Assembly (NCBI GenBank): GCA_023053575.1
Contig: JAKZAP010000022.1
Span: 10,644,518-10,708,517, forward strand
Direction of reading: 5' to 3'
Length of the DNA: 64,000 nucleotides
DNA from: Branchinecta lynchi
Taxonomy: Eukaryota > Arthropoda > Branchiopoda > Anostraca > Branchinectidae
The notes beneath the pieces are model-generated. The model did no database searches. It was not told where the DNA came from and was given only the letters and a program-made list of their open reading frames with translations. The translations under genes and the position numbers were made by a program. Below are positions 4,155-58,229 of this stretch, one piece after another. Each line of letters starts with the position of its first letter. The stretch's first letter is position 1.

Positions 4155-5125
4155 TTTTTGGGATGCCAAAACGTAAGTGGAGGGATACCTATGACATCGC
4201 AAAATGTCCGTCTGTCTGTAAGCACGATAACTCTGGAAGGGAATGAGATAATTCGATGAAACTTGGTGTGAGGATTCACTGGGTCAAGAGTAAGGTCAAG
4301 TTCGTAGATGGGCTCTGTAGCCCTACATTTGAAGGTGGGGGAGGGGGTTCAAATAGAGGGACCAACAAAATATTTGTAAACAGCTAATGTGTCGATTATG
4401 GGGTAATAAGACATTTTGAGCACGACAATGAAAACAATTTTCTCGCCGGACAAGTAGTTCGTCCGGAATACGGTAAAAACCGGAAAGTTGGTTAAAAGTA
4501 CAAGTTTTATCTAAAGTTGATTAAATGTTCGGATCAGGGGGAAGAAGACATGCTGAACACAATGGGGAAACCATTTTCTCGCCGAACACGTAATTCGTCC
4601 GGAATCCGGCGAAAGCCGGAAAGTTGGTTAAAAGTAAAAGTTTCAATTGAAGTCGATTAAATGTTCGATTTAGGTGTACAAGGACATGTTGAACACGATG
4701 GTGTAAACCATTTTCTCGCCGAACAAGTAGTCCGCCCGGAATCCGGCCAAAACTGGAAAATTTGTTAAAAGCAAAAGTTTGATTAGATGCCGGATTAAGG
4801 GGTAAGAAGAGAGGCTGAGTCTGTATGTGACAATCATTTTTACCCGGACATCATAATTAGTCCGGAATCCAAGTCAAGGTTTTATTTAAAGTTGATTAGA
4901 TGTTCTTTATAGGGATAAGGAGATACGCTGGATCCGTCCCTGAATTTTCTTTTTTTGCTGGACGAGTAGTCAAAATCGTCAAAATAGATGGCTTGCAGAG
5001 GTATATCTGAACTTGGTTTTCTCTGATGATTAGCCTGGCTAAGACTGGATCTGGCGAAGACAAGACCCAATTGTCTGGATCAAATATTAGATTTTTGGGA
5101 TCCCATCGACACCTTTGGTCTTGTT
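4155..5125 (-). mobile_element. Family A element, both ends present
   Basis: It runs in reverse from a GGGATGCC-mutated right end to the left end (CCTTTGGTCTTGTT), with about four core units between. Confidence 0.75.
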
Positions 5126-5136
5126 ATTTGTGTACC

Positions 5137-7432
5137 TTTTGGGAACCCAAAACGTAAGTGAGGGATACCGACATCTCTCTGTAAGCACGATAACTCTCGA
5201 ACGGAACCGATCTGATGAAACTTGGTGTGGGGATTCTTTGGGTCAAGGGAGAGGTCGAGTTCGTCAATGGGCTTTGTAGCTCAACGTTTAGGGGTGGGGG
5301 GAGGGGTTTCAAATTAAAGGGCGAACAATTTTTTTTTAACAGCTAATGAGATAGACGATTTAGGTAAGGAGACATGCTGAACACGAATATGAAAACTATT
5401 TTCTCGCCGGACAAGTAGTTTCCCTGGAATCTGGCCAAAACCGGAAAGTTTGTTAAAAGTAAAAGTTTTATATAAAGTTGATTATATGTTTGAGTAAGGG
5501 GTATGAAGACATGCTGAACATTTATATGATAATCATTTTCTCGTTGGACAAGTAGTTCGCCGGGGATCCGTCCGAAACCAGAAAATTGGTTAAAAGTAAA
5601 AGTTTTATCTGAAGTTGATTAGATGTTCGATAGAGGGGTAAAAAGACATGCTGAATCCACTTTTGATAATCATTTTCTACCCGAACATATAGTTCGCAGA
5701 GAATCCGGCTGAAACCGGATAATTTGTTAAAAGTTAAATTTTTTATCTGAAGTTGATTCGATGTTCGCTGAATTCGTTTGTAGTGAAGTGGAGTGTTCCT
5801 GGGAAAATCCACTATTGCGAGCGCTGTGGCAGCTTTCAGCTTTCGGTTTTCACCGTATTTTGTGGAGCTTGTAACTCGTGAACGAGTGCAAGTATCTAGT
5901 TCAAACTTGGTACACATGTGGGTACTGGGGTCTAGTTGTGTCTTTTGGTGTCCCACCCCCTACACCCACCCGGTTCAGGGGCAAATAGCCCAGATTGTTC
6001 AGTTCATCACTTGACCAGAGTTGGACATAAGACGATGAAATCCCGTGTACTTGTGGATCCTAGTGCTAGGAAACTACTTTTAAAGTTTCACCTCCCCCAC
6101 CCATCCCGTTCCTGGGCAACTGGGCCCAAATTGCCCAGGAGTAAAGTTCGTTGCCCGTGACAGGAATCAGCACGTATCAAGTTGAAACTTGGTCGGTTTG
6201 TCAACATTGGGGTCTCTTTTTCCTTATTGCGGGTCCCAAACCCCACCCCCACTTGGTTCAGGGGCGATTGGGCCCAGATTGACCATTTTTAATGTTTTTA
6301 ACTTGATAATATCTGGAGATAAAGCGATGAAATTCCTTTGTGCTTTGGATCATAGGGTTGGGGATTTACATGTAGAGTTGAAGCACCCCCCAGCCTCCCC
6401 GTTCATGGGCAAGTGGGCCCAATTTGCCCATGAGTTAAGTTCCTCTATGACATGTCTTGTGGATATGTATGTATAGATGCAGGAGTGTACCAGCAACCAA
6501 CAAAGACCATGTCGCGTATTTCAAAGCTCATGGGCTTTTGACCCGGGACTGGAATCAAAGTCTAAGCTGGTATACTTGAGGAAATAGAGGTGTAAATACG
6601 TATTTTTATGGGTCCAGACCCCCCCCCCCCTCCCGTTTATGGGCAGCTGGACACCAATTTCCCATGAGTTAAGTTCGTCTATGACAGGTCTCAAGTCCAA
6701 CTCTTGTATATTTTGGGAGATATATCTATTATTTTGGTGCAACAGCACCAAATAAGACGACGCGTCCTGCATTAATCTTTAATGAACAGTTGGAATCTAG
6801 ACTGTTTTGTCATATGATCGATGATATGCCGTTCTTAATGAATAGTGACAAAGGGGGTATTAGGCTGTTACGATTGGTTTACTGCACTTGTTATTGCCTT
6901 GCTAATGGAAAGAGGTCTAAAGGGTCGGACTGGTTCAAGCTGTTTGTGCAAGATCTTCAACATTTCTTTGGATTTAAATTTGCGGTTTGTTTTCATTTGA
7001 AGTGGGATGATTACAAATCAGGATATTTCAATACTTGTTTGGATTGGGGATGTGAAATATCTTATTTCTAAAACTGTTTGCATATAAAGTGCGATAAACA
7101 TTTTACTTTCACACTCCACGTCTGAGCGCTTGCGCACTTGTTGAGCTTTGGTTTTTGCCAGACAACTAGTTCGCCCGGAATCCGGTCGAAACTGGAAATT
7201 TGACAGAAGTAAGGCAAGAAGATTTGATCAGTTTCGTCAAAGTAGATCTGACATATAGCCTAGGGGTAAAGATACACATTGTGAACCCATATCTTAACTT
7301 GGTTTTCTTAGATGATTAGCCATTGCCCTTCTTCTGTTTCTAAATATTAACAGTACAAATGTTAAAGAATTCTAGTGGAGACCGGATATCCACAAGACCA
7401 AATTGTCTGCATCTTGTTCCTCTGGTCTTGTT
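5137..7432 (-). mobile_element. Family A element split by a ~1.36-kb insertion
   Basis: The right end and four core units lie at 5137-5781. The sequence resumes at 7140 with the left subterminal part and left end (TCTGGTCTTGTT). Other copies show these parts adjacent, so 5782-7139 is an insertion. Only 11 bp separate this copy from the one before. Confidence 0.7.
5870..6720 (+). repeat. Family C: diverged ~190-bp tandem units
   Basis: Four units each contain a motif like CCCGTTCATGGGCAACTGGG CCCAAATTGCCCATGAGT (near 5970, 6108, 6245, 6400 and 6640), with GATGAAATCC/TTGAAACTTGG boxes. It lies within the DNA interrupting family A. Short open frames here are by-products. Confidence 0.65.
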
Positions 7433-9545: not shown

Positions 9546-9639
9546 TTTGACATCCGAAAGCGATGCCATCAAGTCATCCAGTTCCTGAGTCGCTGTGGAG
9601 GCAGCGGTACTGGTCCGCTGGAGACTGTCAAGGATATCA
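9546..9639 (-). CDS. PXN: Paxillin exon 5 (LD4 motif)
   Basis: The 94-nt exon has acceptor TTTTGTTGCAG and donor GTAAGT. It encodes DILDSLQRTSTAAS and then TATQELDDLMASLSDVK. This is almost identical to vertebrate LD4 (ATRELDELMASLSDFK), which binds FAK and the GIT-PIX-PAK complex. LD4 is the most conserved LD helix, so this is the strongest evidence for the gene. The exon ends in phase 0. The next exons (LD5, LIM1-4) were looked for in 1-9540 on this strand and not found. Confidence 0.95.
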
Positions 9640-13097: not shown

Positions 13098-13660
13098 TAG
13101 ATAGATAGATAGATTTATTTGCGCTAAAAAGCCACAAGGGCCATGGCAAATACAAAATAATAACAACAAAACAACAACAATAACAAACCTACAAAAAACC
13201 TTCCCGATATGACAGAGCGATCCGAAGGAATCTTCCAAAACTCTTTAAATCCCCAAAATGTTTACTTTTTAATTTTCTAACAAGTTCCTCCCTCGAGAAA
13301 AAACCCACCCTAAAAATTTCCTCCCTTAGATACCTTAAACCCTCACAATCACAAATAAAATGCTCTACATCTTCATCAATCATCCCGCACAAAGGGCAGA
13401 AATAAGGACCAGACGAAACTCTAATTTTCCCAATATATTTTCTTCTTTGGCCAAAAGGCAAACAATCTCCTCTCAGACTAATTAAACATTTCAATTCTTC
13501 TGGAGATAACCCCGACTTAAAATAAATTTCTTCGCCCCATGCCTCCTTAACCCTATTGTAGAGATATTGCCAACTTTGCAAAGCAGGGGTAGAGGAAAAC
13601 ATGGACCACTTTCTCAATCGATGCCAGGAGCTCTCGGAGTTAAGGGGATCTTATTTTAAG
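13098..13660 (-). pseudogene. LINE ORF2 C-terminal fragment (family 2)
   Basis: The minus-strand frame runs from about 13660 to 13189. It includes WSMFSSTPAL, IYFKSGLSPEEL, RRKYIGKIRVSSGPYFCPLCG and EHFICDC, i.e. a CPLC...H...C zinc knuckle typical of LINE ORF2 C-termini. The 3' UTR ends at 13098 in a TAGA/ATCT tetranucleotide tail. It is 5'-truncated, with a stop just above 13660. The same family recurs at 29915-30625. Confidence 0.8.
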
Positions 13661-22109: not shown

Positions 22110-22210
22110 CTGTTCACCCTTATGATACTCGAACGTCTCTGAAAGCACGTGCTTGCCGCTGACGTTTGGGCTAGGTTCCACGGTCTTCTGTAAGTCGGCC
22201 AAAAGGGCAT
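22110..22210 (-). CDS. PXN: Paxillin exon 2 (LD1 motif)
   Basis: The 101-nt exon has acceptor CTCTTCCAG and donor GTAAGA. It reads DALLADLQKTVEPSP and continues to ...FEYHKGEQ. DALLADL completes the LD1 motif begun in exon 1; in vertebrates LD1 binds vinculin, actopaxin and ILK-associated proteins. Tyr33 (EYHKG) lies at about the place of the vertebrate Tyr31 phosphosite, but the context is not a clear YxxP Crk site. The exon starts in phase 1 and ends in phase 0. Confidence 0.92.
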
Positions 22211-23425: not shown

Positions 23426-23952
23426 AGACAATAAGTCTTGGAAAAGACATTTGTTTACTTTTACCATTCAATTTTATCTGGTTTCGAACCTAAAAAACGA
23501 AAGAAACAGTACACAATAGTTATGATCATTGGCGTCGCCAACTTTACAGCCAACGTCTTCACTGACTTGTCGAACAAAATCTTCAGCCAGGAAACAACAA
23601 CGGCCGTGTTTTGATTAGCTGCTAGTAGTTCAAACTCAGGTTCATTTAATTTCAAATATTCGAAACAAGTACTTTTACATAGTCATTCCCCATATTACAT
23701 CAGTCATTCACTGGCATCCAGTCAAACAAGTTCATTTAAGCGCCCAGTGATCGAGTTAGATAATTTGCATAAAGGATAGGAATTCGTTCGTTAAATACAG
23801 TGTTTACTGTCGAGCGAAATCGTAGGCTGGGCTGTATCTCAAAAGTTTGGCCAGTTACTGGAAGTCCCGTGGGGTACAGCCCACGTAAAAAGATAAGTAC
23901 CTGTATTTGCATCACTGTATTAGTATCTTTTTGATTGATGCTTCACTGAATA

Positions 23953-25002
23953 ATGGCAGATTATAAGGTCGGAGACCTAGCTTTCGGAAAGTTCTACGGC
24001 TACCCTCTGTGGCCGGTCCGAATAGTCGATGTTACAAGCTCAAAGAGAGGAAAAGCAGCTCCTGTAAAACTTTACCAAGTTTTCTGCTACGGTTCGCACG
24101 AAAATGTTGCACTCAAGGAGGCAGAGATTCTGCCCTACGACGAAAACTTTTCAGAAGCGTCTAAGAAAAAGGCGAGAGGGGTTGGTAACGCCTTTGCTGA
24201 ATTGGCAGCATTCCCGGATGTGTACAAGGAAAGGACGGGAATGGGTGGAGGCACTTCCCAATCCAGCATTTCATCGCTAGTTTCTACGCTAGTAACAGCT
24301 CAGGAAGAAATTGAAACGATAAAAAGTAATATGCGGGATGAAATTAAGAAGCAAGTTGCCGAGAAATGTATGGGTGATAAGAGTTCTGTGAAAGAGTCGG
24401 ACATTGACACAATAGTTTCCCAAATCTACGATTCTATTTCCCTTGAATATAGTCAAAAGTTTGCGACTATCGAGCGAATGCTAAAGGGATTCCACTCGCA
24501 AATATGTGCTCTTGAAACCCGTGTTGAACTAATCGAATCGCGTTACGATGATCATGAACAGGAAAAGCGCTCAAACATACTCCTTGTGCATGGTGTTTCC
24601 CAGTCAAATGGCGAGCCCACTACTAACGCCGTTCTTCGAGTGTTCAATGAAAGGATGGGCCTTAGCTTACAAGGATCTTCTATCAAGTCTGCGGAACGCA
24701 TGCGATCTCGTTTAAGTACAGATGCAACTAAAACATTGCCAGTGATTGTTACGTTCGATTCAAACAGTCAAGCTAGAGCCGTGTTCATGAACAAAAAGAA
24801 ACTGGCTAAGTCAGAGGTCTACATTTCGGAGTACTTGACCCCTAAAAGGAAGCTGTTATTGGACACTGCAAGAGACAAATTTGGTGCAAAGAATGTATGG
24901 TCGGATAACGGTCGTGTTTTAGCTCGAGTTCAGAATAGCACATCAGCTCTTAAGATTCGATCACTCAATGACGTTCTGAACAATGTGCCTGTAAATCCTT
25001 AA
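23953..25002 (+). CDS. LINE ORF1 protein: PWWP domain, coiled coil, L1-type RNA-binding region
   Basis: 349 residues. Residues 4-95 form a PWWP domain close to HDGF/LEDGF: VGDLAFGKFYGYPLWP (6-21), then QVFCYGSHE (42-50), LPYDEN (60-65) and a helical tail. The signature here is P-L-W-P (18-21). Residues about 105-205 are rich in heptad-like hydrophobics and should form a coiled coil for trimerisation. Residues about 205-345 match the RNA-binding region of many LINE ORF1 proteins (RSNILLVHGV, ERMRSR, LPVIVTF, YISEYLTPKRK). The likely role is RNA binding and chaperoning in the retrotransposition particle; the PWWP would add binding to nucleosomes or DNA. Many CR1/L2 ORF1 proteins carry a PHD finger at this end instead. 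The start is the first ATG of the frame, in a reasonable context (AATAATGGC). Confidence 0.9.
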   Translation: MADYKVGDLAFGKFYGYPLWPVRIVDVTSSKRGKAAPVKLYQVFCYGSHENVALKEAEILPYDENFSEASKKKARGVGNAFAELAAFPDVYKERTGMGGGTSQSSISSLVSTLVTAQEEIETIKSNMRDEIKKQVAEKCMGDKSSVKESDIDTIVSQIYDSISLEYSQKFATIERMLKGFHSQICALETRVELIESRYDDHEQEKRSNILLVHGVSQSNGEPTTNAVLRVFNERMGLSLQGSSIKSAERMRSRLSTDATKTLPVIVTFDSNSQARAVFMNKKKLAKSEVYISEYLTPKRKLLLDTARDKFGAKNVWSDNGRVLARVQNSTSALKIRSLNDVLNNVPVNP

Positions 25003-25161
25003 GCATGATTGGATTGTTGTTGTTGTCTTTTGTTATGTTTAAACCAAGGGTTTCGTTTCGTTTTCTGCAAAGATTATTTCGTTCTTTTTGTTGTGTTATC
25101 TTTCAGCCTACCCATCACAGTGTGTAAAATTAAGGATTAGGCTTTATAAGTTATTAATCAA

Positions 25162-28100
25162 GTGCCTGATAGGCTAGTTGATTTTGAGATTAATGCTCTC
25201 AGAGTTGATGATATTTTGTCCCGTCCATTAGCAAATGATGATTCAATTGTTAGTTACGCTGACCAAGGAATAAAAGTGAGTCGGTATGTGGACCAGCAGG
25301 CTCTACCTCAGTGGTCAGAAAAGGGTGATATTACATTTGGATTTTGGAACTGCCAGGGTCTGAGAACCGCGTATTCGGAAGTATGTCATATTTTAAGTGA
25401 ACTTAATGAACCTCCATTAGTCCTAGGGTTGTGTGAAACGTTTATCTCTAATAAGAATTACTCTGTCTGGGATTTTTGTTTTCCAGGATATATCCCAGAG
25501 CGGAAAGAACGACAATATATAGATCGTGGAGGCCTTGCATTGCTGGTTCGAGAAGGCACACTTTATTCGGTAAGGGAGGACTTGTCACTGTGGCTTGAAG
25601 GTAAGCTAGAGACCCTTTTTATTGAAATTGAAAATAAAAATGATAACAATGTTATTGTTGGGATTATATATAAAGTACCGTCATTTTGTGAAAATGAGTT
25701 TTTGGAAGAAATGGAGAAAATTATGGAAAAGCTTCAGAATGAAAAAAAGCATAAGATACTAATGGGAGACTTTAATATTGATCTTTTGAAGAATGAAAGC
25801 CGATTGAATTTTCTTAACTGTATGATTGGTTATTTTCAATATCCATTGGTAACAATACCAACTCGGATAACAGACCGGAGTGCGACATTAATCGACAATA
25901 TTTTTGTTGATGGTGAGCTGGTTAACCGTGCGTCTGCTGACGTTGTTTTGACGGATGGATCTGATCACTTATTCCTTGTTTCTAAAATCATTTTAAAAGT
26001 AGGAAATAAAGGTAAAATAAAAAGATGTTTTCGAGATATGAATGAAAAAAATTTACAGAATTTTGCGAAAAAATTTGGTGAAGCTGACCTAAGAAATGTG
26101 TTCGATGAAGATAACCCGTCTCTTGCATATGATATTTTTGCAAAAACATTTTTAGAGATATTGGATAACACTTGCCCTATAAAAAGATTAAAAAATAAAA
26201 ACCATAGTTTTCCTCGTAAACCGTGGATCACAAAATGTATTTTAAATTCAATACGTCAAAAAAACAAATTGTATAAAATTTACCTTGCAGACCCTTCGGA
26301 TTTTAATTTACGGCAATTTAAAGAATATAGAAATGCTTTAAACAAAATAAAAAGAAACGCATTAAAACTTTTTTATTCTAGTGAATTTGAGAAAAATAAA
26401 GCTAATATGAAAAAAACTTGGAAAACAATTAATTCTCTAATTGGGCGTAAATCTAAGAGTGAAGTAGTGACTAAACTCAAAACACAGAATGGGGATCTGA
26501 CAGACCCATTGGAAATTGCTAATCATTTGTATGATTATTTTACGAATGAAGGTGCTAAGCTGTGTGAAAAGGCTCGTGAAAGACTAAGCGATCCCCCAAA
26601 CCGTGTACAGCAGGAGGCAGATGTTACAACGACATTTGAGTTTCATGAGTGTTGTGAAGTGGAGGTAGCAAAAATTGTGAGTGATATGAAATCTAATTCC
26701 AGTGGTTTGGATGGTATACCATTAAAGGCTGTAAAAGTAGTGAAGACAAATGTGGTCCCAGTATTGTGCCATTTGATTAATAAATCAATGAAAAAAGGTG
26801 TTTTTCCTGAGGCATTAAAAATAGCGAAGTTAATTCCATTGCATAAAAGCGGAAAAAAAGATGAACCGACTAATAAAAGACCAATTTCTATTCTTCCTTT
26901 TTTTTCAAAAGTATATGAGAAAGTTGTTTGCTCTAGGTTAAGTAAATATATAGAAAGTAACCAAATCCTAATTAATACCCAATTTGGATTCAGAAAAGGG
27001 TTATCCACAGAGCTTGCAACAATTAAGCTAGTTGATTGGATTAATTCAGCATTTGAGTCGGGTCTTATCCCTGCTGCATTATTTCTGGATCTGAAAAAAG
27101 CGTTTGATACGATTGACCACCAAAAGTTACTTTTTGAATTACAAAGAATTGGTGTAACTGGTGTGAGCCTTAAGTGGTTTGAGTCTTATCTGTCTGAGCG
27201 TAAGCAAGTTGTATCAAATGGCTCAGTGTTGTCTCATCCACTTCCGGTGAAGTGCGGCGTACCCCAGGGATCCATCCTAGGCCCATTGTTGTTTTTAATA
27301 TTTATTGACCGAATAAAGCTGTATCTGTCACAGGCTGGAATTATATTATTTGCAGATGATAGCTTATTGCTTGTGGCAGCCCCATCGACTGAACTTCTAT
27401 TTTGTAAAATGGAAACAGCACTACTGGAGTTTGTCCAGTGGGCCGATTATAATCTTCTTACTTTAAATTATGATAAAACAAATTATATAATATTTTCGAG
27501 GATAGGTACCGTTGATACAAATCTGTCGCTGAATGTACATGGAAATAAAATCAATAGAGTTCGGGAAACGAAATATTTAGGGTTCATCATAGATGAGAAT
27601 TTATCATGGAAGGAGCACGCTAATACCATTTCACTTAAAATATCAAGATCCCTGGGCGTGCTTCGCCGCATTAAACATTTAGTGGCCGAAAAAACTATGA
27701 AAACAATTTATTTCGCTATATTTTATCCATACGTGTGCTATGGTTGCTCACTATGGGCAAGTAACTTTATTACGTGTTATAAAAGAATTCAGAAAATACA
27801 AAATAAAGCAATAAAACTTCTTTTTCACAATGATGTTAATAATTTGACACCTTCTGAAATTTTCTTTAAAAATAAACTCTTTGATGTTTCAAAAACAAGG
27901 GATTATCAAATTAGCATTTTTGTTTACAAATACTTTAATAATTTACTGCCTTCCTCTTTTGCAAATTTTTTTTCTACGAATAGTGATTACCACAATTATG
28001 AAACAAGGGGGTGTGGGGATATAGTTCATGAAATCCGGCAAACAACTCGTGCATCGTTCATTATTAGAAATTTTGCTACGAGTGTTTGGAATTCAATCCC

Positions 28101-28176
28101 AATTAAAGTCCGTGAGGCCCCGCACCTTGCTGCATTCAAAGCCACAGTGAAAAGGTTCTTCCTCACAAAAGAGTAA
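25162..28176 (+). CDS. LINE ORF2: AP endonuclease and reverse transcriptase
   Basis: About 1004 residues. The APE-type endonuclease spans ~58-275, with N63 (FWNCQGL), E92 (LCETF), GDFNID at 202-207, IDN at 244-246 and SDH at 267-269, so the catalytic set is complete. The reverse transcriptase spans ~515-765, with QFGFRKGLST (607-616), FLDLKKAFD (641-649, motif A Asp), GVPQGSILGP (699-708) and the active site FADD (730-733). The tail has no RNase H. It nicks target DNA and copies the LINE RNA by target-primed reverse transcription. The frame opens at 25150 after a stop, and no ATG precedes the endonuclease; the given start is a GTG codon and is arbitrary. ORF2 is in the same frame as ORF1, 160 nt downstream. 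Confidence 0.93.
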   Translation: MPDRLVDFEINALRVDDILSRPLANDDSIVSYADQGIKVSRYVDQQALPQWSEKGDITFGFWNCQGLRTAYSEVCHILSELNEPPLVLGLCETFISNKNYSVWDFCFPGYIPERKERQYIDRGGLALLVREGTLYSVREDLSLWLEGKLETLFIEIENKNDNNVIVGIIYKVPSFCENEFLEEMEKIMEKLQNEKKHKILMGDFNIDLLKNESRLNFLNCMIGYFQYPLVTIPTRITDRSATLIDNIFVDGELVNRASADVVLTDGSDHLFLVSKIILKVGNKGKIKRCFRDMNEKNLQNFAKKFGEADLRNVFDEDNPSLAYDIFAKTFLEILDNTCPIKRLKNKNHSFPRKPWITKCILNSIRQKNKLYKIYLADPSDFNLRQFKEYRNALNKIKRNALKLFYSSEFEKNKANMKKTWKTINSLIGRKSKSEVVTKLKTQNGDLTDPLEIANHLYDYFTNEGAKLCEKARERLSDPPNRVQQEADVTTTFEFHECCEVEVAKIVSDMKSNSSGLDGIPLKAVKVVKTNVVPVLCHLINKSMKKGVFPEALKIAKLIPLHKSGKKDEPTNKRPISILPFFSKVYEKVVCSRLSKYIESNQILINTQFGFRKGLSTELATIKLVDWINSAFESGLIPAALFLDLKKAFDTIDHQKLLFELQRIGVTGVSLKWFESYLSERKQVVSNGSVLSHPLPVKCGVPQGSILGPLLFLIFIDRIKLYLSQAGIILFADDSLLLVAAPSTELLFCKMETALLEFVQWADYNLLTLNYDKTNYIIFSRIGTVDTNLSLNVHGNKINRVRETKYLGFIIDENLSWKEHANTISLKISRSLGVLRRIKHLVAEKTMKTIYFAIFYPYVCYGCSLWASNFITCYKRIQKIQNKAIKLLFHNDVNNLTPSEIFFKNKLFDVSKTRDYQISIFVYKYFNNLLPSSFANFFSTNSDYHNYETRGCGDIVHEIRQTTRASFIIRNFATSVWNSIPIKVREAPHLAAFKATVKRFFLTKE

Positions 28177-28456
28177 GCAAGAGTCAGTCGCTTTCTTTCT
28201 TTTTTTTTCTTCTTCTTTTTTGTTTGTTTAGTATTTGGTTTAGTAATTAGTAATTAGAAATGTATTGTTAGTAGTAGTATTTATTTTTCAGTAGTAGTAG
28301 GATTTATTCTTCATTAGTAAACAGATGTGAATTTTGTTTTTCGCCTGTTATTTAACAAGTCCCCCGGGACTTTCCCTGCAGGTGATGCAGACAAATGTTA
28401 CGCATTGGTTTTATATTAAACATAATCTAATCTAATCTAATCTAATCTAATCTAAT
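28177..28456 (+). repeat. LINE 3' UTR and TAATC tail
   Basis: It contains a pyrimidine-rich run, a TAGTAGTAG stretch, a short perfect hairpin at 28357-28372 (AAGTCCC CC GGGACTT), then TAATC repeats. The segment from about 28260 onward is shared with 8925-9118. Confidence 0.85.
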
Positions 28457-29670
28457 CTTCATGTCAGAGAGCAGGCTCGACGGCCAGAAGATAAAATCAA
28501 ATAGTACAACATAACCATGGTCATACACAACTGTATACAATATAACAGCCACCACCGGTCCAAAGAAAGGGGACACCTAGCAAGTAACCTACGCACTAAA
28601 AAAAACCCAAAAAACAACAAGAGCTACGAGCTCATATGGCACTTGTTACGAGTAGATGGTAAAAGATAGTACATTAGAATGTCAAAAAATCCCCCTTCAA
28701 CCCCCTAGGATTGGACCTAGACATAAGGTATCTAATTTCACGCGAGCCTGAGCATTTCCGGCATCGCCCCAGATAATCTAGGGCAAATGTTTCACCATAC
28801 TAGTTTGATTCGTAGGAGTGCCGTACTATTGCCGGTACGCGCCTCGCCACCAAACTTCCGTACCAGGGCCCACCAGGTTATGACATTTGATTCGTGCACT
28901 TGGTCGAGCGGCCAGTGGTGCGAGGCTACGTCCGTATGATTATACCTGAAAGCCTCTGAAGGTAGAATCAATTCTGGAGGAAGTCAACGTTACGCAGCGT
29001 GACGGCTTTTAGGTGGCTTAACCTGACCTACTCTGATCTAAGGCAAGGGTGCTCCCTCCAATCTTCTCACTGTGGTCAAATACGACTAGGACACATAAAG
29101 TTCACATATCTGACATCTTCTCTTCTCGTCCTTCAAGCTTGACTCGAATAGGAACATATCTGCAAATTTACGATTTCCGCCTGACCCTCCTCCTTTACCG
29201 TTGCCGGATTCCAAATAACAAACTAGGCAGCATAAACTCGGTACTGTCCAACTTGCATCCCAGTCGGCCCATTCGTTTGATTTTTTATCATGTCACTAAG
29301 TTTACGGCCCCCCCCCCTCCAGCTACCCCAGCCAATACCGCCTGTGGTTCGGAGAGATGTTTTGCCTATCTAGCTCATTACCTCTTTTCACCCATAAAGT
29401 TTCACTCGAGTCAGACCACCCGTTGGCAAATTGTGCAAGTCAATAATTTCCGGATTCCCCTTCCATTAACTCCCCCCAAAATGGCCGGATCCAGAAACAT
29501 ACATTTTCTTAGGACATGGTGTTGGGTCTTTAATAAGTATGGTCCAGTTTTAGGAGAAAATACTGAGTCTACCTAGGGTTATAATTTTAAAGGCGGCTTA
29601 TCTGGAGGCCCTAGAAGATGGTTCCCGGGATCTTGGCCGGCGTTGATTAAGACGATTATGGATGATTGTG
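28457..29670. other. Unassigned intron 1 sequence
   Basis: A frame at 29049-29576 (plus) has low-complexity proline-rich parts and no known domain. No splice support. Confidence 0.45.
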
Positions 29671-29914: not shown

Positions 29915-30625
29915 TGAAGGCAAGGTTAATGGACCAGGAGATTCAGCAGTGGCTATGGGAGGTGAGCTCGACCCCTTCTCTGAAGATTTATGCTGCAGGA
30001 TTTAAGAATTTAGAGAGAGAGAGAAAGAGATAGGTTTAATTAGACAACATCGTAGCTGACAGCTAATTTGCGTTGCTTCACTATACTAAATAACAAACTA
30101 AAAAATTATGGGGGGGGGAACTTTATCTTAAGGTTGGTTTAGGACCCGACGAACTAAAGTGGATGGTGAGTTTTCGTGCAGATGCTTTACTGGTGGGTGC
30201 GATAAGAAAATATATTGGTAAAATTAAGTGCGGTTCTGGTCCTTATTTTTGCCCGTTATGCGGAAAGATGGATGAAGATCTGGAACACTTGCTTTGTTCT
30301 TGTAGTGAGTTGGGTGTACCGAGTGAAGTTTTTGGTAGGGAGGTTCTTCAAGGGGGGGCTCTGAAAGATTTGATTGGTAGCAAAGTGTTCCAAGAGTTGC
30401 GTCGGTTGGGTAGATTCCTGAAGGTTGCCACGGAGCACCGTGAACGTTTTATTCCAGGTTGATGTTGTGGTAGGGATAGGTATTGGTTTGTTTGATAGTT
30501 ATTTGGTTATTAGAATTATTAGTTGAATGCTGAATATTTGGACTGGATTTGGACAGTTGGAGCGCTTATTTATTTTTAGATTTTGTCCCGCTACGGCCCA
30601 CAGGGCTTTTTTGGGAATACATACA
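29915..30625 (+). pseudogene. LINE ORF2 C-terminal fragment (family 2), interrupted
   Basis: The plus-strand frame includes QQWLWEVSSTPSLKIY near 29950-30000, then VGLGPDELKWMVSFRAD and RKYIGKIKCGSGPYFCPLCG up to a stop at 30462. It aligns with the minus-strand fragment at 13189-13660, zinc knuckle included. About 110 bp with GA-rich and G-run sequence (30005-30118) is inserted in the frame. The 3' UTR ends with a TACATATA tail near 30600-30630. Confidence 0.78.
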
Positions 30626-31500: not shown

Positions 31501-32863
31501 TTTTGGGATCCCAAAACGTAAGTGGAGGGATACCTATGACATCGCAAAAGTTGTCCGTCTGTCCGTCCGTCCGTCTGTAAGCACGATAACTCTCGAAGGG
31601 AATGAGATATTTTGATGAAACTTGGTGTGAGGGTTCGTTGGGTCGTCGGACCAGTCAAGTTCGTAGATGGGCTTTGTAGCTCTACATTTAGGGGTGGGGG
31701 AGGGGATTCAAATTAAGGGACAAACAAAATGTTTTGAAACAGCTAATGTGATAGTCGATTATGGGGTAAGAAGACATGCTGAACACGATGGTGAAAACCA
31801 TTTTGTCATCGGACAAGTAGTTCGCCCGGAATCCGGCCAAAACCGGAAAGTTTGTTGAAAGAAAAAGTTTTATTTGAAGTTGATTAGATGTTCGATTTAG
31901 GGGTAGGAAGACATGCTGAAGACAATGGTGAAAACTATTTTCTCGACGGACAAGTATTTCGCCCGGAATCCGGCCCAAACCGGAAAGTTTGTTGAAAGTA
32001 AAAGTTTTATTTGAAGTTGATTAGATGTTCGATTTAGACGATGAAGACGATGGTGAAAACTATTTTCTCGACGGACAAGTATTTCGCCCGGAATCCGGCC
32101 CAAACCGGAAAGTTTGTTGAAAGTAAAAGTTTTATTTGAAGTTGATTAGATGTTCGATTTAGAGGTAGGAAGACATGCTGAAGACGATGGTGAAAACTAT
32201 TTTCTCGACGGACAAGTATTTCGACCGGAATCCTGCCCAAACCGGAAAGTTTGTCAAAATTAAAAGTTTTATTTGGAGTTGATTAGATGTTCGATTTAGG
32301 GCAAGAAGACATTCTGAACACTTATGTGAAAACAAGTTTCTACCCGGACATGTATAGTTCGTCCGGAATCCGGCCAAAACCGGAAAACTGTTGGAAGTCA
32401 AAGTTTTATTTTTAGTTGATTAGATGTATGACAATCATATTTTACCCGGACATATAGTTCGACCGGAATCCGGCTGGAATCGGAAAATTTGTTATAAGCT
32501 AAATTTCTATTTGAAGTTGATTAGATGTTCATTACTGGGGAAAGAAGATACCCTGATTTCGTGTTTGAGCTTTCTTTTTTCGCCGGACAAGTAGTTCTGG
32601 AGTTCGGCCGGAACCGGGAAATTAGCAGAAGTGGCAGGAAGTTTTCGTCAAAACAGATATGATAGGGGTAAACACACATGCTGAATCCAAATCTGAACTT
32701 GGTTTTCTCAGGTGATTAGCTATTTTGCCTTAATCTGTTTCTGAATTTTAATTGTAAAAATGTTCAAGGAGTCTGGCGAAGACTGGATCCAGCTAAGACA
32801 AGACCCTGCTGTCTGGATCAGATATTGAATTTTTGGGATCCCATCGAAACCTTTGGTCTTGTT
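31501..32863 (-). mobile_element. Family A element, best-preserved copy
   Basis: 1363 bp from the perfect 16-bp palindrome TTTTGGGATCCCAAAA to CCATCGAAACCTTTGGTCTT. The core has about six units; three successive ones are nearly identical, spaced 137, 125 and 137 bp. Inferred as a non-autonomous element with a tandem-repeat core, possibly Helitron-related; the class is not proven. Confidence 0.85.
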
Positions 32864-36373: not shown

Positions 36374-37218
36374 AACGAGACCAAAGGTTTTGATGGGATC
36401 CCAAAAATTTAACATTTGATCCAGACAATCGGGTCTTACAGAGGTCCGGTCTTCACCAGACTCATTGAGCACTATAGTAATAAAATTTAGAAACAGATTA
36501 AGGCAAATGGTAATCATCTGAGAAGACCAAGTTCAAATATGGATTCAGGATATGTGTTTACCCCTATAGCCTGCGTCATACCTACTTCAGATAAAACTTC
36601 AAGTTTTAACATTTTTTCCGTTGTCAGCCGGATTCTTGGCGAACTATGTATCCAGGTAGAAAATGGTAGAAAATACACGAATTCAGCACGTCATTTTACC
36701 CGTAAATCGAACACCTATTGAAATTCATATTAAACTTTTACTTGTAACAAATTTTCCGGTTTTAGCCGGATTCCGGGCGATCTACTTGTCCGGCTAGAAA
36801 AAAATTTTCATATCTGGATTCAGCATGTTTCCCTATCTGTAAATCGAACCTTTAATCAACTTCAGATTAAACTTTTATTTTTCAAACATTTTCGGGTTTT
36901 GGCCGGGTTCCAGGCGATCTACTGGTCCGACAAGAAAATCATCTTGATATACGGATTCGGCATGTCTCCTTGGGACATCTAATCCACTTCAGATAAAACT
37001 TTTACTTTCAACAAACTGTCCGGTGTTGGCCGAATTCCGGGTGAACTACTTGTCCGGAGAGTTTCATATCCGTGTTCAGCATGTCGTCTTACTCCATAAT
37101 CGATTAGCTTTTAAATTTTTTTTCTTCAAAATATCTCGTTACCTTCGAGAGTTATCGTGCTGACAGACGGACAACTTTTGCGATGTCATGAGTATCCCCC
37201 CACTTACGTTTTGGGATC
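36374..37218 (+). mobile_element. Family A element, both ends present
   Basis: AACGAGACCAAAGG ... GGGATCCC left; CACTTACGTTTT GGGATCCC right, followed by C and A runs. Three to four core units. Confidence 0.8.
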
Positions 37219-39764: not shown

Positions 39765-40203
39765 TTGCTTGTTCTGCCTTTTATAATATACTTAGCTCCC
39801 ATGTGGAATTATAAGCTTCTAAAATCCCCACCTTTCTCCACTGTTTCGTTTCGTAACTACACATTTTTAGCGCTTTTTCGGCCTTGCCGAGTTTTCCCGT
39901 CAACCAACGAAAAGTTTGCCGGAATCTTGAACGTTCGCTGACAACTCTTCCATACATAAGGATGTGATAATCTTCTGTTAGTGACTTCTTTTACTTGCTT
40001 AGTTTTCGCACTTTTTAGCCAAGGCATGTTCAGTTTGAAAATGTTTTGCGCCCAGCCGCCGCGTCGGAGAGCAGGAAGGCTGGTTATAGTCGACAAGCGC
40101 TAAGGCGAGAATCGCTAGTTTCAGGTGGAAAGTAATGGTATTTTCGAAAACGTGTCTTCTGATCCCTTTCATAGGGAAAAGATCATTTCTAGTAAGAGTT
40201 GTG
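39765..40203 (+). repeat. Family K repeat, copy 1
   Basis: Shares TTCTGCCTTTTATA, TTTTTAGCGCTT.TTCGGCC and TTTCTAGTAAGAG..GTGCTTTAAG with 49183-49622 and, in part, 61500-61882. It abuts the LINE fragment at 40199. Confidence 0.65.
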
Positions 40204-40936
40204 CTTTAAGAAAAAACATATTCTGAGAAAACTAAAATCAGCTCAACGAATTTCGATGTTGGCAATCTCCAAATCTTTTCGTAGCGCACAGTCAGAAGTA
40301 ATAACAGCTATTTCTGGCGTGTTACCTATTCACATTAGAGCTTTTGAACTGACTGCATTAAGATATGCTCGCAAAGGCCGTCCTCAAAATTGGCCGATGT
40401 TTACTCCACCTTCTTTCCCTTTAGTTCAAAGATCATCTCTTCATAGTATTTTTACAGATGAAGTTCTTTCTGAATTGTTTGGACACAGTATTTTTGATAA
40501 TAATTTTATTTTAAACCGTCAGTTTCTAAAATCTAAGTTATATGAAATGTGGTATAGGGATTTTCAAAATTCAGTTAGCTACTGGCCAAGCCGTTTCTTT
40601 TCAAGTACAAATGATTTAATTGCTGCTTCTTCTTTTGAACCAAAATACCAGTTGACACAATTTATTACCGGCCATTGTCGTCTTAATAGTTTCCTGCATA
40701 GAATTGGTAAAGCTCCTTCTAGCTTGTGTTATTGTTGCCAAATTCCTGAAACTTGCAGCCATCTTTTATTTGAATGTCCTATATATTACACTCAGCGAAT
40801 GTCCTTGTATTTGTGTTTATCTCAACTAGGTCTTAGCTTTCCTTTTAGTCTGAATTTAGCAGTGAGTAATAAGTATATTAGAAATCTTGTTATTGTTTTT
40901 TTTTTAAAAAGAACTAGGAGATTAGAAATTTCGTAG
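40199..40936 (+). pseudogene. R1/I-like LINE ORF2 C-terminal fragment
   Basis: The frame of 245 residues begins in LKSAQRISMLAISKSFRSAQ...SGVLPIHIRAFE, the segment after the reverse transcriptase in R1/I/Jockey-type elements. It continues to ITGHCRLNSFLHRIGKAPSS and a CYCC...H...C zinc knuckle. It is truncated at the 5' side and joins directly to a repeat of family K (39765-40203). It is a different LINE clade from the two above. Confidence 0.78.
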
Positions 40937-54414: not shown

Positions 54415-55460
54415 AACAAGACCAAAGGTTTCGATGGGATCCCAAAAATTCAATATCTGACCCAGACAACTGGGTCTTGTCTTAGCCAGATCCAGTCATC
54501 GCCAGACTCCTTGAACATTTTTATAATTAAAATTCAGAAACAGATTAAGGCCAAATAGCTAATCATCTGAGAAAAACTTCCTGCCACTACCGCCAATTAC
54601 CTGATTTCGGTCAAACTTCAGAACTAATTGTCCGACGAAAAAACGAAAGCTCAAAAATGAACTCAGGGTATCTTCTTTCCCCAATAATGAACATCTAATC
54701 AACTTCAAATACAAATTTAACTTATAACAAATTTTCCGACTCCAGCCGGATTCCGGTCGAACTATATGTCCGAGTAAAATATGATTGTCACACACGGATT
54801 CAGCATCTCTTCTTACCCCTTAATCGGTTATCTAATCAACTAGAAATAAAACTTTAACTTCTACCAATTTTCCGGTTTGGGCCGGATTCCGCGCGAACTA
54901 CTTGTCCGTCGAAAAAATGGTTTTCACCACCGTGTTCAGCGTGTCTTCCTACCCCTAAATCGAACATCTAATCAACCTAAAATAAAACTTTTACTTTTAA
55001 CAAACTTTCCGGTTTGGGCTGGATTCCGGGCGAACTACTTGTCCGTCGAGAAAATGGTTTTCACCATCGTCTTCAGCATGTCTTCCTACCCCTAAATCGA
55101 ACATCTAATCAACTTCTAAAAAACTTTTACTTTTAACAAACTTTCCGGTTTTGGACAACAAAATGGTTTTCGCCATCGTCTTCAGCATGTCTTCTTACCC
55201 CATAATCGACTATCACATTAGCTATTTCAAAATATTTTGTTTGCCCCTTAATTTGAAACCCCTCCCCCACCCCTAAATATAGGGCTACAAAGCCCATCTA
55301 CGAACTTGACTGGTCCGACGACCCAACGAATCCTCACACCAATTTTCATCAAATTATCTCATTCCCTTCGAGAGTTATCGTGCTTACAGACGGACGGACA
55401 GATGGACAACTTTCGCGATGTCATAGGTATCCCTCCACTTACGTTTTGGGATCCCAAAAA
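54415..55460 (+). mobile_element. Family A element, both ends present
   Basis: AACAAGACCAAAGGTTTCGA ... GGGATCCC on both sides, with about four core units, 54415-55460. Confidence 0.85.
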
Positions 55461-55579: not shown

Positions 55580-56210
55580 AGAAAGCCAAGTTCAGGTATG
55601 GTTCAAGTTCAGCATATGTGTCATATCTATTTTGACGAAACTGATCGAAACTCCCTGCCTTATTGCCGCCAAATATCCGGTTTCGGCCAGATTCCAGATG
55701 AACTACGTGTCCGGCAAAAATTAAGCTGAAAACGAATTCAGCGCATCTTCTTACGCCTGTATCAAACCTATAATCAACTTCAGATAAACCGTAACTTTTA
55801 ACAAATTTTCAGGTTTTGGCCGGACTCCGGGCGAACCATTTGTGAGGCGAGAAAATAATTTTCACAAAGGGACTCAGCATGCCTCCTTACCAGTACATCG
55901 AATCTCTAATCAACTTGAGATACCGTAATAGTTCTTACGATTTTTCGGTTTCGGCCGGATTCTGGGCGAACTACTTGTCCGGGTAGAAAACGATTGTCAT
56001 ATACGGATTCAGCATGACTTCTTATCTCTAAATTGAACATTTAATCAAATTCACATGAAATTTTAATTTTAACAAATTTTCCGGTTTTCATCAGATTCCG
56101 GACGAACTAATTTTGCGGCGAGAAAATAAGTTTCAAATATGGATTCAGCGTGTCTCCTACCCCTAGATCGACTATCTCACTGCCTTTTAAAAATATTTTT
56201 GACCGAGGAT
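55580..56210 (+). repeat. Family A core without ends
   Basis: Begins in the left subterminal region and carries four units, ending before the right end; next to the complete copy at 54415. Confidence 0.65.
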
Positions 56211-58216: not shown

Positions 58217-58229
58217 CAATCTGATCCAT
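58217..58229 (-). CDS. PXN: Paxillin coding exon 1 (start codon, 13 nt)
   Basis: On the minus strand ATGGATCAGATTG is followed by the strong donor GTAAGT (58216-58211). It encodes M-D-Q-I plus the first base of a codon. Joined to exon 2 it reads MDQIDALLADL, close to the vertebrate paxillin start MDDLDALLADL, which is also split by an intron at the same Asp codon. A pyrimidine-rich stretch ending TTTGCAG just upstream (58282-58290) could be an acceptor, so this may be the second transcribed exon, preceded by 5' UTR exons. The identification rests on the phase-perfect join and the LD1 match. Confidence 0.8.

Follow-up and report, generated by a model that had tools for sequence, protein, structure and literature searches.

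A LINE of Branchinecta lynchi with a predicted HDGF/LEDGF-type PWWP domain at the start of its ORF1 protein

The ORF1 protein of a LINE in the genome of Branchinecta lynchi almost certainly begins with a PWWP domain of the HDGF/LEDGF type, fused in frame to the remainder of the protein. The element lies within a stretch of 64,000 nt (GCA_023053575.1, contig JAKZAP010000022.1, positions 10,644,518 to 10,708,517 of the forward strand), to which we refer as the window, and copies were sought in the complete assembly of 575.7 Mb in 216 contigs. On the usual view, the endonuclease motif accounts for nearly all the target preference that most LINEs have. Much the same little target choice is described for the LINEs with an APE domain in the text of a survey of these elements (PMC4120745). 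We suggest that the present element is a young two-ORF LINE in which the PWWP domain of the ORF1 protein would dock the particle on nucleosomes, leading to insertion into preferred chromatin, and we put the probability of this reading at a little above one half (about 0.55). If it is correct, such elements may choose their landing sites via marked chromatin.

Structure of the element

The LINE occupies about 4.76 kb of the plus strand (23700-28458). Its 5′ end was compared in seven other copies. In window numbering five of these begin at 23698-23701 and one at 23707, and the seventh is 5′-truncated at 23857. The 5′ flanks of six of the seven copies and of the window appear unrelated, except that the opening bases of the element recur in two of them. 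The 3′ end was set from the tail of the window copy alone within its subfamily, comprising 7.2 units of (TAATC)n at 28423-28458. The shared 5′ end with unrelated flanks, together with the (TAATC)n end, therefore defines the element as 23700-28458 with a 5′ UTR of 253 bases (23700-23952, plus strand) leading up to the ATG of ORF1. At the junctions of the window copy, the single copy examined, there was no exact repeat of nine or more bases, the lengths judged, that might be a target-site duplication. Two further observations concern the termini. In L001, L005, L048, L049, L057 and others the opening bases of the element occur again, partly or several times, just upstream of the 5′ end, and two copies of another subfamily (L010 and L028) have a pentamer tail of (GAATT)n as against (TAATC)n in the window element.

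ORF1 (23953-25002, plus strand) encodes 349 amino acids in an open frame. The PWWP domain is placed at residues 1-96 (23953-24240), of which residues 7-76 (23971-24180) are matched by Pfam. It is followed by a coiled coil at approximately residues 105-205 (24265-24567) and by a region resembling the RRM and CTD of L1 ORF1p at approximately residues 206-349 (24568-24999), all on the plus strand. The predicted model of ORF1 has helices at 106-140 and 148-205, and part of the coiled coil can be aligned with the trimer of L1 ORF1p. The layout of a type II (L1-like) ORF1, i.e. coiled coil, RRM and CTD, is present in the predicted models. The C-terminal region contains a match to Baculo_FP_2nd (PF25298, baculovirus FP domain 2) at residues 296-341, and this is found in 5 of the 13 subfamily representatives defined below. 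A viral origin of the match was considered and rejected, and we read it as the CTD of the LINE.

ORF2 (25162-28176, plus strand; 1004 amino acids) has matches to endonuclease and reverse transcriptase, with an L1 ORF2p match at E = 1.2e-21. Hallmarks of APE-type LINEs are present as dispersed copies, 5′ truncation and a 3′ tail, and the element classes as an APE-type LINE, i.e. a non-LTR retrotransposon. A profile search of the window ORF2 gave no match to RNase H; this and the short-repeat tail agree with a possible placement in the CR1/L2 lineage of the Jockey superfamily. The frame of ORF2 is open from 25150, and has no ATG before residue 188 of the open frame (25150-25713), i.e. past the start of the endonuclease match. 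ATTAAT occurs at the same point of ORF2 in all seven other copies compared, with L004 slightly different downstream, and in most of the other representatives an ATG occurs close to where the frame begins. It is likely that ORF2 of the window subfamily is translated from a non-AUG start or by reinitiation.

The PWWP domain and its distribution

The window ORF1 scores 36.4 bits with the PWWP profile PF00855, for which the curated cut-off is 25.6 bits. The predicted model contains the PWWP fold of a β-barrel with C-terminal helices, and among solved structures the nearest PWWP domains by both sequence and fold are those of HDGF, PSIP1 (LEDGF), HRP2 and HRP3. A chance match to the profile is ruled out by the Pfam score taken with the sequence and fold comparisons. 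The genome search with PF00855 was also run on 14 control genomes, and gave no signal in any of them. A preliminary description of this DNA had proposed an HDGF/LEDGF-like PWWP at the start of ORF1, in one frame with a coiled coil and an RNA-binding region and followed by ORF2. That proposal is confirmed in each of its parts.

The assembly search with ORF1 gave at least 130 matches (116 of 509 candidates were scored), merging into 114 loci. The match begins at or before residue 45 in 93 of them, and 82 span from residue 10 or earlier to residue 330 or later, 74 of the latter being free of stop codons. Another 21 loci start after residue 45. For two of these the PWWP profile has a hit further upstream in the same orientation (35 of the 115 genome hits of the profile were compared), and another four extend to residues 46-80 of the ORF1 of L026, i.e. 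into the domain. The remaining 15 may be truncated or may lack the domain. The search with L026 ORF1 itself gave at least 133 matches (114 of 577 candidates scored); one locus found in this way that lacks the N-terminus (L059) belongs to the L019 type and is truncated within the PWWP, and repeats of the 137-base type stand in front of it, as judged by eye.

We fetched 20 loci as representatives (L009 to L028). The near-duplicates L013, L014, L017, L018, L023 and L028 were excluded, as were L024 and L025 for a damaged 5′ part, leaving 12 loci which with the window make up the 13 representatives. The Pfam PWWP was matched at E ≤ 0.01 in all 13. Matches to ORF2 lie downstream of ORF1 in 19 of the 20 fetched loci, several in pieces, with none in L014, and the ORF2 identity among ten representatives compared ranges from 37 to 81%. 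The idea of a one-off fusion is excluded by the number of copies and subfamilies that have the same PWWP-ORF1. The fusion is evidently old, and it is by these comparisons the usual ORF1 of diverse LINE subfamilies in this genome. Sister LINEs lacking the PWWP were not found in an ORF2 search in which 46 of 17,966 candidates were scored, so that near relatives only were covered. The identity of ORF1 to that of the window drops stepwise, from about 100 to 62% and then to 45-35%. Many copies within one such step are nearly identical and open, and this points to recent activity of the LINE.

The subfamilies also differ in how their two reading frames are combined. L010 (C21:19260200-19268700) and L019 (C20:12167100-12175600) have ORF2 sequences that are 81.4% identical, and their ORF1 C-terminal parts and PWWPs are 36.7% and 47.9% identical respectively. 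Among the ten compared, the ORF1 of L019 is nearest to that of L027 (C1:8151500-8160000), with 49.2% identity in the C-terminal part and 60.6% in the PWWP. On this comparison ORF1 has been swapped between LINE lineages, with a PWWP on both versions.

A host HDGF gene was looked for as donor. There was none among the host PWWP exons that were read (L029, L030, L032, L060 and L061), a set from which short exons may have escaped the profile. By eye these exons are presumably of ZMYND, NSD, BRPF and other types rather than HDGF; that of L030 has a bromodomain match just below its cut-off.

A database search returned 13 relatives, of which eight have a precomputed PF00855 match. P0006 has the PWWP motif by alignment, and P0001, P0003, P0009 and P0010 begin downstream of the motif. 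Their best matches among the fetched loci are 42-85% identical, indicating that related elements exist in other DNA sources. When the PWWP part alone was used as query there were 47 candidates with none at E ≤ 0.01, though P0002 carries the domain. Scans of prokaryote and viral collections gave 30 and 16 pattern matches respectively, none of which was confirmed. No report of a LINE with a PWWP was found by title or start of abstract in the openly licensed literature; a record elsewhere is possible, Repbase and Dfam lying outside the scope of the search.

Cage residues, selection and the possible role of the domain

The PWWPs of the 13 representatives were aligned with those of P0002, P0004, P0005, P0007 and P0008, giving 18 sequences. 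In the numbering of the LINE, F14, P18, W20, P21, F44, C45, Y46, G47 and H49 are invariant in all 18. Position 17 is tyrosine in 17 and phenylalanine in one, and position 50 is glutamate or aspartate in 17. Taking all alignment rows with a letter at the position, all 30 have C45. F14 and W20 are kept in 29 of the 30, and the exception is L024, in which this part is damaged. The cage of LEDGF consists of M15, Y18, W21 and F44, and H48 and E49 matter for its specificity (PMC3663649). Alignment with HDGF and PSIP1 places the corresponding positions of the LINE domain at F14, Y17, W20 and C45. Three of the four putative wall positions are aromatic and conserved and the fourth is cysteine in every sequence, so that in all 18 Met15 of LEDGF is replaced by Phe and Phe44 by Cys. 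By eye, Phe is found at the latter position in the three host PWWP exons that extend over it (L029, L030 and L032). An F44A substitution in LEDGF abolished binding, possibly through misfolding (PMC3663649). With cysteine at this position, binding of K36me3 cannot be taken for granted, and this residue argues against the LINE domain being a plain copy of that of LEDGF.

The altered cage might instead read another mark, either a less methylated form or methylation of some residue besides H3K36, or it might bind a non-histone protein that is methylated, and so bring the particle to other chromatin or a host factor. The joint replacement of F44 by C and of M15 by F in all 18 sequences is in keeping with this, and the PWWP of HDGF2 has been crystallized with H3K79me3 and H4K20me3 (PMC3119473). 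Against this, the PWWPs most similar in sequence and in fold come from the HDGF/LEDGF family, whose member LEDGF is a reader of H3K36me3, and we regard a different ligand as quite unlikely.

The same cysteine could also mean that the domain reads no histone mark, and serves as a nucleic-acid-binding module for packaging or for strand handling in target-primed reverse transcription. In favor of this, the LEDGF PWWP has a higher affinity for DNA (KD = 150 μM) than for the histone peptide (17 mM) (PMC3663649). Against it, F14, W20 and H49 show no variation in the 18 sequences and Y17 hardly any, and K13, K71-73 and R75 are more variable, the reverse of the pattern of a pure DNA binder. This conservation of cage positions over basic ones favors reading over mere DNA binding, and we consider a role confined to nucleic acid unlikely. 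Of the basic residues that aid DNA binding only some are kept in the LINE domain, with K72 in 14 of the 18 sequences and K or R at position 75 in 13, and the net charge is 0 to +6 in 17 rows; this counts against docking on nucleosomes as well.

Rates of substitution bear on whether the domain has a function at all. Maximum-likelihood dN/dS for the PWWP was 0.09, 0.11 and 0.05 in three subfamily pairs, values that are rough because synonymous sites are saturated. Two of these pairs gave a lower dN/dS for the coiled coil and RRM-CTD than for the PWWP, and two gave a dN that was lower for the PWWP than for either other part of ORF1. By the NG86 method dS was saturated and could not be calculated for most distant pairs; where it could, dN/dS of the PWWP was 0.32, 0.56, 0.19, 0, 0.21 and 0.19, and the value of 0.56 comes from the close pair L011-L014 with few changes. 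A passenger domain that plays no role in transposition would be at odds with this constraint, with the invariance across subfamilies and with the presence of a PWWP on both versions of the exchanged ORF1. Copies cut inside the domain do exist, yet 5′ truncation is common in LINEs and these lend no positive support, so that we consider a passenger highly improbable.

We therefore return to the docking of the particle on nucleosomes as our preferred reading. By analogy with L1 ORF1p, a trimer of ORF1p would form around the RNA of the element. The PWWP heads would then dock the particle on nucleosomes through DNA contact and the altered methyl-lysine cage, after which the ORF2 endonuclease would nick and reverse transcription would proceed nearby, in the preferred chromatin state. 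There is precedent in the PWWP protein JASPer, which is targeted to H3K36me3 chromatin and tethers a partner (PMC6877644), and chromatin targeting by the PWWP may be taken as a good hypothesis. In a more specific form, a LINE clade that has long possessed its own histone-mark reader, with a cage diverged from that of the host reader, would aim its insertions at transcribed gene bodies, i.e. introns, as a self-encoded counterpart of LEDGF-guided retroviral integration. We offer this form only tentatively. If ORF1p does bear a nucleosome reader that is under constraint and resembles those of the host, guidance of LINE insertion by chromatin would become directly testable through single residues (W20 and C45).

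Genomic location and relation to known systems

The window copy very probably lies within an intron of a paxillin gene, in agreement with the preliminary description, which had placed it in a gene intron. A minus-strand exon at 9546-9639 corresponds to paxillin LD4 (Pfam Paxillin, E = 7.4e-5, 23.1 bits against a cut-off of 25; splice sites by eye). A second minus-strand exon at 22110-22210, with an AG acceptor and a GTAAG donor and no Pfam match of its own, contains the motif ALLADLQ, which we take to be of the paxillin LD1 type. This exon has no start codon, so an upstream exon must exist. A tentative candidate for the first coding exon, reading M-D-Q-I-, is found at 58217-58229 on the minus strand and joins in phase to give MDQIDALLADLQ. 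It is one of five hits to a loose pattern and was chosen for phase and residues; it is also the sole hit to a tighter pattern, which was drawn up with the candidate already known. If it is the first exon, the LINE is located in intron 1 of paxillin in the antisense orientation. The intronic window copy and the truncated copy L059 in a tandem-repeat array are single cases that offer no proof on insertion bias. CpG depletion was given up as a proxy for gene bodies, the window having CpG o/e = 0.87 and TpG/CpA = 1.02.

Other repeats were observed in the window. The segment 8953-9118, near the paxillin LD4 exon, matches the 3′ terminus of the LINE at 84-91% identity, and is either a truncated copy or a SINE with a LINE tail. 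A tandem repeat of 135-137 bases forms short arrays in both orientations (1186-1588, 4400-4780, 5363-5767, 31755-32427, 36586-36969, 54689-55151 and 55796-56171), and it is repeats of this type, by eye, behind which L059 sits elsewhere in the genome. Open frames at 13192-13650, 30094-30459 and 40196-40933, each with a weak match to zf-RVT below cut-off, are remains of other LINEs, as is a minus-strand segment at 576-761 that is 32% identical to ORF2 residues 797-858.

To our knowledge human L1 ORF1p has no PWWP, and human L1 ends in a poly(A) tail in contrast to the (TAATC)n of the window LINE. A closer parallel is found among the CR1, L2 and Jockey elements, for which a survey lists ORF1 proteins with PHD fingers, esterase, RRM, CCHC and L1-type parts (PMC4120745). 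The preliminary description had named PHD and esterase domains on CR1/L2-type ORF1 and knew of no PWWP there; the word PWWP does not occur in the main text of PMC4120745. The PHD-bearing ORF1 proteins of CR1/L2 likewise join a chromatin reader to a LINE ORF1, and in L2 subgroup 6 the PHD is N-terminal on an L1-type (transposase 22) ORF1, as is the PWWP here (PMC4120745). A targeting role for the PHD was proposed by the authors of that survey (PMC4120745). The reader is a PHD finger in those elements and a PWWP in the window LINE, and an L1-type ORF1 that starts with an HDGF-type PWWP is, as judged from its sequence, an addition to the PHD as a chromatin reader of ORF1. With two such readers, it looks as if their capture is a recurrent strategy and not an isolated oddity.

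The PWWPs closest to that of the LINE belong to host proteins, i.e. LEDGF/PSIP1, HDGF, HRP2 and HRP3. The integration of HIV is guided by LEDGF, and the LINE would work alike, with a PWWP tether biasing insertion. HIV borrows the LEDGF of its host via integrase, whereas the window LINE encodes a PWWP itself.
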